NCBI GenBank assembly: GCA_026874595.1
Contig: CM049314.1
Location: forward strand, 57,212,300-57,276,299
From: Sipunculus nudus
Lineage: Eukaryota > Annelida > Sipuncula > Golfingiida > Sipunculidae
Length of the DNA stretch: 64,000 nt
Reading direction: 5' to 3'
A program made the position numbers and the translations under genes. This document shows, piece by piece, positions 3,721 to 58,177 of this stretch; positions within the stretch are counted from its first letter, which is position 1, and every line of letters begins with the position of its first letter. Below the pieces are notes generated by a model. That model saw only the letters and a program-made list of their open reading frames with translations. It searched no databases and had not been told where the DNA came from.

Positions 3721-4611
3721 TTGAAATGATTCAAAGTGTGTCTTAAGTGGACATTTCCCACATTACCTTATAAATTGGAAGAATTTGACATGATCCTGGG
3801 AAATTTTTGTGAAGGCTCTATCTCAGTGCCATCTAACAGAAATTATGCTGATGAACTCTGCCCATGGAAAACCTTTCCATGACGAACCCAGTCAAAGTCA
3901 TGTGCACCTAGCTATCCATTGATAAACAGGTATAATGCTAAAATATGTGAATTGGCCCAGTGAATTACAGCTCCAATCTGAACACAGTAACTGTTTTATT
4001 TCACAGACCTGCAAGAACTGTAAATATATCCATGTGGTAATATAGATTTATGAATTTTTTATTATGCTGGTCTTTTCATGTTGTCTCCTCATAAATTATT
4101 CTCTTTTTTGCCTTTCCTCTAAGTAACAAGATAGATTGCCACTCTTTGTTTGGTTGGTATGAATGTGTCGATACATATTTGTGTCCTTTCTACTCAAGCA
4201 GCATGTACAAAGTTGATTACATTGACATAAAATAAAATTCCATATCAAGATCCAAGTCTTGAAAATGGATAAAGTTGCTTTTAATCTCTACTGTCTGTGT
4301 ATATTAGTTTATAATACTTATAATATATATAATACCTGTGAGTACAAGTTTAAATGAAACAGGTATGATAAAGTAATACGGATTTATTGCAGTGTGCCTC
4401 ATAAATTCTCTAGAAAGAAACCTAGCTTATTTGGCTTTTTGCCTCCTCGGCCCAGCTGTCAAAAGAACTGTTGCAAATATGTGTAGCATGGGAAAGTATA
4501 CGACAGCTATAAGCATGTGTAACAAAATATATTTTATGGTATGGATGCATGGGCCTGGGTTTTGAAATATTTAGACAAGTTCTTTTACATTCCTAATTAC
4601 AGTATTTTACT

Positions 4612-5282
4612 GTGTAGATAGAGTGGACCTGTATTTTGAGATCAGTATTTATGTTGCACCTTGCAATATGGATGTGTCTTGAGCTGTGTTTTGAGAGTGT
4701 TATTTATTGTGTTTTGCAATATAGATGAAACTGAACTCTTCTTTGAGATGCTTAATTGTGGTACTTTACAGTGTGGATGGAGCAGATCAGTATTTTAGAA
4801 TACCATTAATGTGTTTTTTATTATGGATTGAGTTGATCTGTTTTAAGATTATTACACTTTATTTTGCAGTATGGGTGGAGCTGACCTGTATTTTTTTTTT
4901 TTGCAGTATGGATTGATTGACCTGTGTTTTAATATTGTCATTTGTATTTTGCAGTATGGATTGAATGACCTGTGTTTTAATATTGTCATTTGTATTTTGC
5001 AGTATGGATAAAGCTGACCTGTGTTTTGAGATTGTTATTTGTATTTTGCAGTATGGATGGAGCCGACCTGTGTTTTGAGATTGTTATTTGTATTTTGCAG
5101 TATGGATGGAGCTGACCTGTGTTTTGAGATTGTTATTTGTATTTTGCAGTATGGATCGAGCTGACCTGTGTTTTGAGATTGTTAATTCTATTTTGCAGTA
5201 TGGATTGAGCTGAATGTATTTTGAAATTGTTATTTGTATTTTGCAGTTTGAATGGAGCTTACCTATGTTTTGTATTTTGCAG
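4612..5282 (+). repeat. 49-bp tandem array of the CASK exon 5' edge and its splice acceptor
   Basis: About 14 decaying copies of a unit of roughly 49 bp precede the real exon. Each unit consists of an intron tail (GTATTTTGCAG) followed by the first bases of the exon (TATGGATGGAGCTGACCTGT, then a TTTTGAGATTGTTATTT tail). Acceptor AGs end at 4869, 4906, 4954, 5002, 5051, 5100, 5149, 5198, 5246 and finally the genuine 5282. Most spacings are 48-49 bp; the last is 36. The units at 5002-5198 are nearly identical to the real junction. Those before 4870 are degenerate (AATATGGAT, CAGTGTGGATGG). The array stops exactly where the coding exon continues (AAGCGGGCG instead of ATTTGTATT), so it arose from the exon boundary itself. 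All but the last decoy AG lead to a stop codon. Confidence 0.92.
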
Positions 5283-5360
5283 TATGGATGGAGCTGACCT
5301 ATGTTTTGAGATTGTTAAGCGGGCGTCCTCAGGGTTTGTGTACAGTGAAGCAGTTGCAGG
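5283..5360 (+). CDS. CASK: CASK exon a: kinase hinge and start of the C-lobe
   Basis: This 78-nt internal exon starts after TTTTGCAG and ends before a GTGAGT donor. It encodes the last base of a Phe codon, then [18 protein letters not shown] followed by VYSEAVA, closely matching the vertebrate CASK segment [23 protein letters not shown] (calcium/calmodulin-dependent serine protein kinase) is a membrane-associated guanylate-kinase scaffold. It binds neurexin, syndecan, Mint/X11 and Veli at synapses and epithelial junctions. This piece is the hinge and alpha-D region of the N-terminal CaM-kinase domain. Entry and exit are both phase 2, so skipping this exon alone would keep the frame but delete 26 residues. 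The exon upstream is outside the window or unrecognised. The acceptor is preceded by a tandem array of its own copies. Confidence 0.95.
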
Positions 5361-7391
5361 GTGAGTAGAAGTCTATAAAGTTATTCATATGTGTAAATTC
5401 TATTGACTTTGTATCAGGCTTTTGTGATTAATCAGCACTATATTATTTATACACAGAGTGAACATTCACTGATAACTTACATGACTTAACACCAACATGA
5501 CCACCATCAGTCATGGATAGCATGATACACACCTTTATCTGTGGGGGTAAAATTCCATACATATGCCAGGAGATTCACCAGTATACTGAGTCAAAGAACA
5601 ATTGTCTTACTTCATTTTAGGTCTCATTAGAATGTAAACAGACAAATGTACTTGTTGGTCCATTAAATCAGGAAAGACATGATGAACCTTGTCTAAGTAG
5701 TCAGGAATTGTCTAAAAATAAAATGAAAAGTTTGTTTCCTCCTCGAGATTTTCATTGTAGTTTTCAACATGACTGTTTCTGTTACTCAGACATCATTGAT
5801 AGGCTGTCTTATGCTGGGGGACAAATGTTTTTCACTTTCAGGTATTTTGTTTTCTATAATGTGTATAAATATATCTCGTTTTCAGCAGGTTGGATTTAAT
5901 TGTCAGCTCTAAGAAAACCATAATATTCTGAACAGTAGCAATATAACTTACACTGACAATAAATCCACTAAAAGCACTATCCAGTTTTTCTATTCTGACA
6001 GGTAAATCAGCTGTTCTTATATAATATAATTAAATCCTTAACTTTAACCACCCAGTGTTATTTAATAATTATTATAGTCTTATTCTGTATACAAGGAATA
6101 TGAGTAACCGAAGGTTGTTAATTAAATTACTGTCTGTTTACTGTATATAAGTATTATAAATATTATTTGAAGATTTATCACTAATAATCTCTGGATTTAA
6201 ACAGTAAATTATCCTCTTAGTTACCCAGAGTACTCCTCTGTGCCACTGTTTTAGGTCCTGAATTGTCAGGAGTAATACCAGCTTTGTCCCAAAGGGGGTC
6301 ATTTTCCATATTTGCCCATAAATCCTGAGGAATTTGACATTATTTTGGGAGGGATGTCTAGCTGTGCCGTCTTTCAGAAATGATGCCTTTGTAATGCAAA
6401 GATATCATATAAAGCACTTTCTGTCATATTTGCAATGAAACTGGTTTTCAGGTGTGAAACAATTAACAGGTAATAAGCTAGTTAAAATAACAACTAGACT
6501 TCTTGTAACTGTTATACAACAGTTACAGTTTTCCACCTATCCCCCAACCCCCACAGCTCATCAAAATAATTCATCCATAGTAAGGCACATCTTGGGTAAG
6601 AATCAATGAAATTGTACCAAAAAAAAGATGCAGAATAATAACAGGAAAAAACAAATATCCGCACCTAAAAACAGGAGTAGATACTAATGCCAAAAAAATA
6701 TCTTCACCTATGGATAAGTGCAGATAATTATGTGAGAGTAGTAGACATGCAAATGAAGCCAGTATATGAAGCTATTTTAGGTATGTTTGTACCAAAAAAA
6801 TATGATATTTGGTAGACATGAGCAGTGAGAGCTACTACAGACTTTGCGGTCGAGCCAGACCAATCAGGAAACAATTCATCAATGCCCAGACACGTTTGAC
6901 CTTCCTCGCAGGTGCGTTGCCACTAATACAGACCTGAGTACATTCTGGGTTTAGTTGCTGTCGCAATAAAAACAGTACATCGACATCGAGGTGGATGTGG
7001 ATGCAGCCATTGAGTCTGGTTTCCCAGCTGCTCTGATCGGCAAAGTGCACACCAGAGATCAAAGTCAGCTTGTTTGGCAAACAGCCTTTTAAATGGTTTC
7101 CTAATATCGCTTTATCTTCTTTAAATGTTTGTTGTTGTCATGTAACTTGTCCATGATTTTAAGGTCCGTTTAGAGCCAAGAGTCCTCTGGGGTATCCCCA
7201 GTTGTTCTTTATTTTTTTACACGAATGCACCAGTAACCAGGATAAACATTTAAATCAACCACTTCCTGTTGGAATAACTGCTGCATATTCAAACTTGAAT
7301 ATATGATGGCTTTTATAATGTTGTCTATTCGAACTCTCGAGCTGACTGTTTCAACTTATATGATGACAAGAACAAGCATAAGAAATTGAAA
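5361..7391. other. Intron 1, first part: no clear element
   Basis: AT-rich intronic sequence beginning at the GTGAGT donor. A minus-strand open stretch at 6835-7080 is locally richer in CpG than its surroundings, but I see no homology or splice context. Nothing else is recognised. Confidence 0.5.
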
Positions 7392-27249: not shown

Positions 27250-29455
27250 ACCCACATATCTCGGAAACCGTTTGACCGATCAGGCTAAAAATTTTGCACA
27301 AATGTAGCCCTTTGATAGCTTTATAACACACACTAAAAATGGTGGCGGCACCTGCAACCATTTTTGCACAGCGTCCATTTGTTCATCTGCCTTTGGATAA
27401 TATTACTCATATCTCAGCAGAGGTTTGACTTATCCACCTGAAATTTTGCAGGTTTATACATCCTGGACAGCTTTCTCGATTTTATGACAGGTGGCGCCAC
27501 CTACATTCACATTTACTGTGCAGACATCCAAGCTCACATCTCGGGAACCGTTTGACCGATAGGGCCAAAATTTTGCATGTGCCTAGATCTCACATAGCTC
27601 TTCATCATAGGCAAAACTGGTGGTGCCACCTGCAACCACTTATGCACAGCGTCCATCTTTTCATCTGCCTTTGGATAAAATCACTCATATCTCAGCAGTG
27701 GTTTGACTTATCCACCTGAAAGTTTGCAGTTTTATACATCCTGGAAGGTTTCTTGATTTTATGACAGGTGTCGCCACCTACATTCACAGTTACTCTGCAG
27801 ACATTCAAGCTCATATCTCAGGAACCATTTGACAGATTAGGCCAAAATTTTGCACGTGTCTAGATCTCACATAGCTCTTCATCATAGGCAAAACTGGTGG
27901 TGCCACCTGCAACCATTTATGCACAGCGTCCATCTGTTCATCTGCCTTAGGTTAAAATCACTCATATCTCAGCAGTGGTTTGACTTTTCCACCTGAAATT
28001 TTGCAGGTTTATACATCCTGGACAGCTTTCTCGATTTTATGACAGGTGTCGCCACCTACATTCACATTTACTCTGCAGACATTCAAGCTCTTATCTCGGG
28101 AACCATTTGACCGATTGGGCCAAAATTTTGCTTGTTTATAGATCCCACATAGCTCTTCATCATAGGCAAAACTGGTGGTGCCACCTGCAACCATTTATGC
28201 ACAGCGTCATTCTGTTCATCTGCCTTGGGATAATATTACTAATATTTCAGCAGTGGTTTTTGACTTATTCACCTGAAATTTTGCAGGTTTATACATCCTG
28301 GACAGCTTTCTTGATTTTATAACAGGTGGCGCCATCTACATTCACTTTTACTATGCAGACATTCAAGCTCATATCTCGGGAACCGTTTGACCGATTCGGC
28401 CAAAATTTTGCTTGTGTATAGATCTCACATCGCTCTTCATCATAGGCAAAACTGGTGGCGCCACCTGCAACCACTTATGCACAGCATCAATCTGTTCATC
28501 TACCTTTGGATAATATCACTCTTGTCTCAGCAGTGGTTTGACTTATCCACCTGAAATTTTGCAGGTTTATACATCCTGGACAGCTTTCTGGATTTATGAC
28601 AGGTGGCACCACCTACATTCACATTTACACAGCAGACATCCAAGCTCATATCTCGGGAACTATTTGACTGATTGGGCAAAAAGTTTGCGTGTGTATAGAT
28701 CTCACATAGCTCTTCATCATAGGCAAAACTGGTGGCGCCATCTGCAACCACTTATGCACAGCGTCCATCTGTTCATCTGCCTTGGGATAAAATCGCTCAT
28801 ATCTCAGCAGTGGTTTGACTTATCCACCTGAAATTTTGCAGGTTTATACATCATGGACAGGTTTTTCGATTTTATAACAGGTGGCACCACCTACATTCAC
28901 ATTTACTCTGCAGATTTCCAAGCTCATATTTCGGGAACCATTTGACTGATTAGGCCAAAATTTTGCATGTGTATAGATCTCACATAGCTTTTCATCACAC
29001 GCAAAACTGGTGGTGCCACCTGCAACCATTTATGCACAACATCCATCTGTTCATCTGCCTTAGGTTAAAATCACTCATATCTCAGCAGTGGTTTAACTTA
29101 TCCACCTGAAATTTTGCAGGTATTTTACATGCTTGACAGCTTTCTTGATTTTATGACAGGTGTCGCCACCTACATTCACTTTTACTCTGCAGACATCCAG
29201 CTCATATCTCGGGAACCATTTGACTGATTAGGCCAAAATTTTGCATGTGCATAGATCTCACATAGCTCTTGGCGCCACCTGCAACCACTTATGCACAGCA
29301 TCCATCTGTTGATCTGCCTTTGGATAAAATCACTCATATCTCGGCAGTGGTTTGACTTATCCACCTGAAATTTTGCAGGTTTATACATCCTGGACAATTT
29401 TCTCGATTTTATGACAGGTGGCACCACCTACATTCACGTTTAAGCTGCAGACATC
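27250..29455. repeat. 278-bp satellite-like tandem array, about 8 copies
   Basis: The block GGGAACCGTTTGACCGAT (with variants) recurs at about 27267, 27545, 27824, 28102, 28378, 28656, 28935 and 29211, giving a period of 276-279 bp. Each unit also carries CTCATATCTCAGCAGTGGTT, TTTTGCAGGTTTATACATCC, the palindromic AGGTGGCGCCACCTACATTC and ACTGGTGGTGCCACCTGCAA. The palindrome AGGTGGCGCCACCT is perfect in some units. 278 is not a multiple of three, and the ~61-codon minus-strand frames seen in several units are repeat by-products. Confidence 0.93.
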
Positions 29456-29894
29456 CATGCTAATATGCAACACACCACACTGTATTCCCCTTGCCACTGA
29501 ATCCATGCTTCACTTCACCCGTCCCATTCAGATTTCTGCGGATACACATAATGGCTTGTCGACTACCCATATTCTGGTTTTAAAATGTCCTAGTCCGAAA
29601 TTGCAGGTCAGAAACGTCCATTTTGCTGAAATCATAATGACTAAGGTAGATATGCAGGACTTAGGAGGATCAATATTAAATTTTAAAAATAAACCTCCAT
29701 TCATACTCCTAAACTTTGCACAGGTTCGCATTAGGCCTGTAGGCCTTGTTTTAAATGGGCCCTATCATTCTCCCTGAACCATTTAACGTATATGCACCAG
29801 GCTCGATGGACATCACTACGTAGCTGAAGATAAATCTCAACTGTCGCAAACCATCGGCAGCTTCTGAAATTAATGACCAATGGTCTGGTATGTA

Positions 29895-31134: not shown

Positions 31135-31310
31135 GCACTACCTACGTCAGATCTTGGAAGCCTTGCGGTACTGTCATGAAAACGATATAATCCACCGAGA
31201 TATGAAACCCCACTGCGTCTTACTTGCCAACAAAGAAAACTCAGCCCCGATTAAATTAGGCGGCTTTGGAGTAGCCATACAACTTCCAGAGGGAGGGAAA
31301 ATATCGGGAG
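31135..31310 (+). CDS. CASK: CASK exon b: catalytic loop and GFG motif
   Basis: A 176-nt exon between TTTTCAG and GTGAGT. It encodes [18 protein letters not shown], then [32 protein letters not shown] and PEGGKISG. In canonical kinases the catalytic loop ends with Asn and the metal motif is DFG. Here the Asn is Cys (HRDMKPHC) and DFG is GFG, exactly as in vertebrate CASK (its Cys146 and Gly162), whereas HRD is kept. From known work on CASK, this is an atypical kinase that works without Mg2+. It starts in phase 2 and ends in phase 1. It is separated from its neighbours by the two largest introns complete in the window besides the 14.4-kb one (25.8 and 9.8 kb). Confidence 0.97.
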
Positions 31311-57796: not shown

Positions 57797-58177
57797 GTGA
57801 GTAGAAAGAACTAATCAGATTGCTCCATGGTCATTTATTGGTGATTACAACATCTCATCATTTGTTCAATTAATAACAACTGTGCCAAGCAGATATAGTG
57901 AAGTCAAATGGAAATTATATTTAATGAATTTTAAGAAAAGTAATTTTAAGTGATATATATAAGATTTTGGTCCTTTCTTATTATTCCTTACCTTTGTTAA
58001 ATGCCCTCAAGTCATAAGTGTCATAAGATTTTGGTGTTTTCTCATTTTTCCTTCACCTTTGCTAAATGCCCTCAAGTCACAAGTCCATAAGATTTTGGTC
58101 CTTTCTTATATTCCATCACCTTTGCTTAATGACCTCAAGTGGTCAGTATCTGGAGGTTTGTGTCTTCTGTCCCTAAG
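57797..58177. other. Intron 6 with three-fold local repeat
   Basis: This 381-bp intron contains three copies of a ~65-bp unit (ATAAGATTTTGGTCCTTTCT, then CACCTTTGCTAAATG and CCTCAAGT) at about 57959, 58023 and 58086. In vertebrates a short alternative segment exists at this place in CASK; I see no equivalent micro-exon here. Confidence 0.75.

Follow-up and report, generated by a model that had tools for sequence, protein, structure and literature searches.

A border-spanning minisatellite multiplies candidate 3' splice sites upstream of a CASK exon

The 64,000-nucleotide stretch of DNA analysed here (the window) contains an exon of CASK that is preceded directly by a row of copies of its own 3' splice site. 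This arrangement raises the question of which acceptor would be chosen, and whether the copies regulate that choice or are simply tolerated. We consider it probable that the row is a minisatellite that arose by duplication across the 3' splice site and is silent for the most part; the last site would be favoured, probably with some leakage to those upstream.

The peptide encoded by the exon was identical at 23 of 25 residues to PDB chains named CASK (E about 6e-10), and this conservation with CASK of other animals marks the exon as the source of the repeats. The sequences indicate that the exon predates the array and gave rise to the repeats. The exon before it ends at window position -59835 (GAATA, followed directly by GTAAGT) and reads on as VFEY-MDGADLC across an intron of 65,117 bp. 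The next CASK exon starts at 31135, and the intron following the array-bearing exon is 25,774 bp long.

A tandem array of a 49-bp unit, in about 14 copies, had been described before this exon in a first-pass annotation of the window. TRF returned a period of 49 (4899-5272, 7.7 copies, 90% matches, score 559), with adjoining rows at 4822-4978 and 5233-5308. We made a profile from ten copies (4822-5282), which match it by construction. Independently of these, the profile matched the exon edge at 5283-5317 (E 3.8e-9) and also picked up, farther upstream and in the expected order, four decayed copies within 4603-4821 (E 2.5e-4, 0.0027, 0.59 and 0.09). These results confirmed an array of 14, perhaps 15, head-to-tail copies that ends at the genuine exon (Table 1). 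The segment 4380-4602 gave a local-alignment score of 29 (maximum of 27 in 300 shuffles), and the sequence at 4541-4602 is a possible fifteenth copy. Each unit consists of the first 35 nt of the exon edge followed by the 14-nt acceptor TTTGTATTTTGCAG, and similarity to the unit ceases at exon base 35; the composition proposed earlier, an acceptor plus exon bases, was therefore correct, but each unit carries 35 nt of the exon rather than about 30 nt. The period, the score and the ordered profile matches place the array among minisatellites (tandem repeats), and with 35 exon bases and 14 acceptor bases per unit it is also a repeat that spans an exon-intron boundary.

Table 1. Positions of the array, its copies and the related features (window positions unless a contig is given)
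Feature	Position	Strand	Basis
Possible oldest, decayed copy; ends in TTACAG	4541..4602	+	profile E 12 only
Decayed copies U00-U03	4603..4821	+	alignment score 139; maximum of 300 shuffles 37
Copies U04-U07; AGs 4869, 4906, 4954, 5002	4822..5002	+	copy alignment
Copies U08-U11, least diverged block; AGs 5051, 5100, 5149, 5198	5003..5198	+	copy alignment
Copy U12, with the nearest decoy acceptor (5246) at its end; changed branch-point motif (CTGAA)	5199..5246	+	
Copy U13, 36 nt (13 nt shorter); ends in genuine acceptor	5247..5282	+	
Predicted branch-point A (CTTAC) of genuine acceptor	5261..5261	+	motif only
Genuine CASK exon, 78 nt; first 35 nt = repeated edge; donor GTGAGT at 5361	5283..5360	+	
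Second exon-edge acceptor array (L067 and L091), period about 45, about four copies	C4:81946604-81947904	-	

Any two of the copies U08-U11 were identical at 45-48 of 49 positions, and U06 and U07 agreed at 47 of 48. Identity to U10 (5101-5149) was 48/49 for U09, 47/49 for U08 and 46/49 for U11; the copies nearest the exon gave 44/48 (U12) and 32/36 (U13), and those farther out 43/48 (U07 and U06), 35/37 (U05) and 40/45 (U04). The polarity described earlier was thus borne out for the distant copies, which are decayed, but the least diverged sequence lies at 5003-5198 and not in the two copies that touch the exon. The unit's final AG was kept in 11 of 14 copies (U02, at 4771, and U04-U13), and the base pair homologous to it was gone from U00, U01 and U03. 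The ten AGs named in the first-pass annotation were all found in place; as 5282 is the genuine site, nine of them are decoys.

The unit could also have been an ordinary repeat dispersed through the genome, a possibility that the annotation had itself raised. A search of 1.43 Gb with a border-spanning 25-mer, allowing up to three mismatches, gave at least eight matches, all inside the array, and a 401-bp query gave at least two rows, both at the array. With 8/8 pattern matches and 2/2 rows in the array (both counts are lower bounds), the unit was found there alone and, within the limits of these searches, a dispersed repeat or transposon was rejected.

We trained a small acceptor score on other CASK acceptors, located by protein matches, whose leave-one-out scores ranged from -1.1 to 10.2 (n=11). 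The genuine acceptor (5282) scored 5.6. All nine decoy AGs (4869-5246) scored within the range of these controls: 2.1 at 4869, 9.7 at 4906, 5.6 at both 4954 and 5002, 6.5 at 5051, 5100 and 5149, 4.3 at 5198, and 6.5 (6.46) at 5246. Scores of other upstream AGs were 0.0 (4602), -2.6 (4645), 1.2 (4771) and -5.6 (4790). At the sequence level, the scores support the earlier proposal of an array that multiplies plausible acceptors. Since the genuine site scored no better than decoys 4906-5246 (4.3-9.7), silence of the decoys would not be predicted from the acceptor itself. RNA structure was ruled out as a means of hiding them, because the predicted fold of 4870-5360 was less stable than those of all 100 shuffles (z +2.76).

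A YTNAY motif was present 15-55 nt upstream in seven of the nine decoys (it was absent before 5100 and 5246) and in 10 of the 11 controls, so that its presence discriminates little. Before 4906, 5051, 5149 and 5198 the motif is CTGAC, derived from the copied codons GCT GAC, and its distance to the AG is 34 nt before 5051, 5149 and 5198 and 22 nt before 4906. In U08, U10 and U11 there are thus 34 nt between the motif and the next AG, and a GAG follows 13 nt past the motif; U09 has no motif. At the genuine site a CTTAC motif lies 21 nt upstream of the AG, with no AG between. An argument from this layout is made at the level of motifs and is not proof.

The explanation that we favour begins with a tandem duplication of a 49-bp stretch across the intron-exon border of the CASK exon; the array would then have expanded and turned over as a minisatellite, largely neutrally, and its upstream copies would be intron in the course of decay. 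The genuine 3' splice site is presumed to be the last one, at 5282. Because the exon is flanked by very long introns, it is likely to be recognised by exon definition, and the acceptor nearest the donor would then be favoured; human data in PMC9225289 indicate that exon definition shifts the choice to sites closest across the exon. The shortening of U13, which leaves the branch-point motif close to its AG with none intervening, may favour the last site as well. The suggestion in the first-pass annotation that the array is tolerated because the last AG wins comes closest to this explanation, but the rule is too simple. According to the same paper, human acceptors show an overall preference for the upstream site, which long introns merely reduce (PMC9225289), and in a designed library neither of two consensus acceptors in tandem was preferred on account of its order (PMC6783452). 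Some leakage to the decoys is therefore likely and should be measurable: use of 5246 would add a short in-frame insert, and farther sites would be expected to give early stops and transcript decay.

We looked for signs of selection on the copies. In the exon-derived columns, the ten copies differed from U10 by 29 substitutions, of which 14, 7 and 8 fell at codon positions 1, 2 and 3, with gaps and three inserted bases of U04 left out of the count. No coding constraint on the copied exon bases was detected (codon position 3, p 0.56), and this absence of codon-position bias led us to reject a coding use of the copies. Four of the ten copies (U04, U06, U07 and U12) read ATG GAT TGA and so run straight into a stop in the native frame. 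In the acceptor, the last nine columns had received none of 31 substitutions in ten copies, and p for this conservation ranged, over four choices of copies, from 0.013 (all ten) to 0.060 (the six nearest). When the unchanged nine-column window was allowed to lie anywhere in the unit, p was 0.24-0.67; the last 14 columns held two substitutions (p 0.023-0.22). The evidence for selection on the acceptor core is suggestive only. The most variable position of the unit in the 4822-5246 region was column 8, changed in six of ten copies. The absence of codon bias, the loss of the AG from three of the four oldest clear copies and the weak conservation of the core lend no support to the regulation or buffering of acceptor choice that had been suggested for the array.

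We sampled 79 other exons of the same genome from Pfam matches. The kinase set comprised 40 matches (acceptor side, 600 bp), some of them close together and probably of one gene, and one (L051) in a long open frame that may be intronless. The helicase sets comprised 20 exons on both sides and 19 further acceptors (300 bp). Self-similarity was called at an E cut-off of 0.01 in the kinase set and, for the two helicase sets, at 1e-4 and 1e-3. An array with the anatomy of the CASK array was found at one of the 79 exons, or 1.3% (95% interval 0.03-6.9%). It was among four of the 40 kinase loci with self-similarity (L067, L047, L064 and L056) and belongs to what we take to be a NEK-like kinase gene (L067); comparison of the exon with PDB and NCBIfam yielded no name. 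Its unit is an acceptor with the first ~24 exon bases, running into the exon (TVYLCMRLADNKLVIIKQIPVDQMTKEERQAAL), with 28 identical bases across the intron-exon border, and a 36-mer from it had two matches in the genome, both at this array. The nearest decoy is in frame and stop-free (45 nt), and the two farther decoys tested lead to stops. That a second gene carries an array built in this way fits a general mutational origin. At the other kinase loci, the array of L064 ends about 60 nt short of the kinase match, and the self-similarity of L056 is a weak match (59% identity). At L047, presumably an Aurora-like kinase, decayed tandem acceptor-like copies at about 300-603 (CTGTATTGTGACTTCCAG) reach the acceptor of the kinase exon without an exon edge. 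In the helicase sets, the repeats of L072, L076 and L092 lie away from the exon, and no self-repeat overlapped the matched exons at the 20 loci covered on both sides; L083 has a two-copy 12-bp repeat within its helicase exon. None of the 11 other CASK acceptors, located by protein-matched exons in 264 kb of fetched sequence, was crossed by an array.

A bolder reading, which we think unlikely though conceivable, is that acceptor satellites recur in this genome and that selection shapes the exon-adjacent copy, such that leakage would be harmless or useful and would produce length-variable in-frame inserts together with poison transcripts. The nearest decoy is in frame and free of stops in both of the arrays seen, that of CASK and that of the NEK-like gene.

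The decoys may alternatively regulate output: transcripts spliced at distal decoys would carry premature stops and be degraded, and the length of the array or a splicing factor would tune the amount of CASK. We translated from the eleven upstream AGs at 4602, 4771, 4869, 4906, 4954, 5002, 5051, 5100, 5149, 5198 and 5246. As a rule, nonsense-mediated decay acts when a stop lies clearly more than 50 nt upstream of an exon junction, and for all ten AGs from 4602 to 5198 a premature stop was predicted 147-739 nt upstream of the exon's 3' end, as a switch of this kind would need. The decoy scores, which resemble that of the genuine site, and the unsubstituted acceptor core of the ten copies also agree with such a role. 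However, early stops are to be expected by chance in retained intron sequence, the AG is gone from three older copies, the conservation of the core is not significant when the window may lie anywhere, and two of nine decoys have no YTNAY motif. We regard this alternative as quite improbable. Donor-like GTs with at least six of nine consensus bases were looked for at 4600-5360 and none was found; pseudo-exons or recursive splicing, and intron gain by tandem duplication, were rejected on this account.

The decoy at 5246 behaved differently from the other ten AGs on translation, as it is in frame (36 nt) and would add 12 residues, with no stop in the added part or in the exon. The genuine reading and that from 5246 both ran on to one common stop farther downstream; we ascribe this stop to two intron bases carried along at the end of the exon starting at 31135, and it leaves the comparison unaffected. 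The decoy at 5246 might be a real alternative acceptor that lengthens a kinase-like domain, with the distal copies as by-products. Its acceptor score is in keeping with this, as is the open, in-frame nearest decoy of the NEK-like gene, but these are two cases only, and chance alone would put one spacing in three in frame. Furthermore, the position before 5246 where a YTNAY motif would be sought is empty of one, and the insert would sit in a conserved domain, so that we give this isoform switch very little credence. An assembly artefact, with the number or order of repeats wrong, is an error to which tandem repeats are prone, but it is highly improbable here, since the copies carry private differences, a similar array exists elsewhere in the genome, and the array, at about 740 bp, is shorter than a long read.

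The array has several known relatives. Turri in 1995 reportedly described a minisatellite of splice donors; its unit carries a splice site, as that of the CASK array does, but the sites there are donors, whereas the CASK array is made of acceptors with an exon edge. NAGNAG tandem alternative acceptors likewise give one exon competing acceptors, at a spacing of 3 nt as against 36-49 nt in the CASK array, where each has its own pyrimidine-rich tract. Zhuo et al. in 2007 are said to have described introns that come from tandem arrays. Tandem duplication supplies splice sites in that work and in the tandem duplication of proto-splice sites treated in PMC2891723, as it does here; the CASK array differs from both in making no new intron and in having no donor-like GT (6/9). 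In human segmental-duplication genes, internal tandem repeats at exon-intron boundaries can alter splicing (PMC2812944), and they share their location with the CASK array. There, however, novel introns of recent paralogues are concerned, whereas the CASK array multiplies the acceptor of an existing long intron in a conserved gene. A literature search by title, with most subscription papers outside its scope, found no satellite of an acceptor plus exon edge. Repeats spanning exon-intron boundaries are known in general.

The CASK array amounts to a natural experiment in cis-competition, as eight to nine comparable acceptors are lined up ahead of a single exon. Counts of decoy use would show whether proximity to the exon, branch-point layout or order decides the choice of acceptor in a gene with long introns. 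If such arrays are common, as one more among 79 exons hints (wide interval, 0.03-6.9%), alternative acceptors and copy-number variation in splicing would steadily arise from them.

Other repeats were seen in the same gene. A 64-bp tandem repeat at 57959-58140 of the window stops 37 nt before the CASK acceptor at 58177 and does not contain it, and 7.7 tandem copies of a 278-bp unit occupy 27335-29466 within a CASK intron. During the survey we also observed long unbroken helicase frames that recur with identical scores on many small contigs (C61, C62, C66, C69, C72, C74, C75, C77, C83, C89 and C90). They look as though the assembly contained several bacterial genomes that are nearly identical, possibly those of a symbiont.
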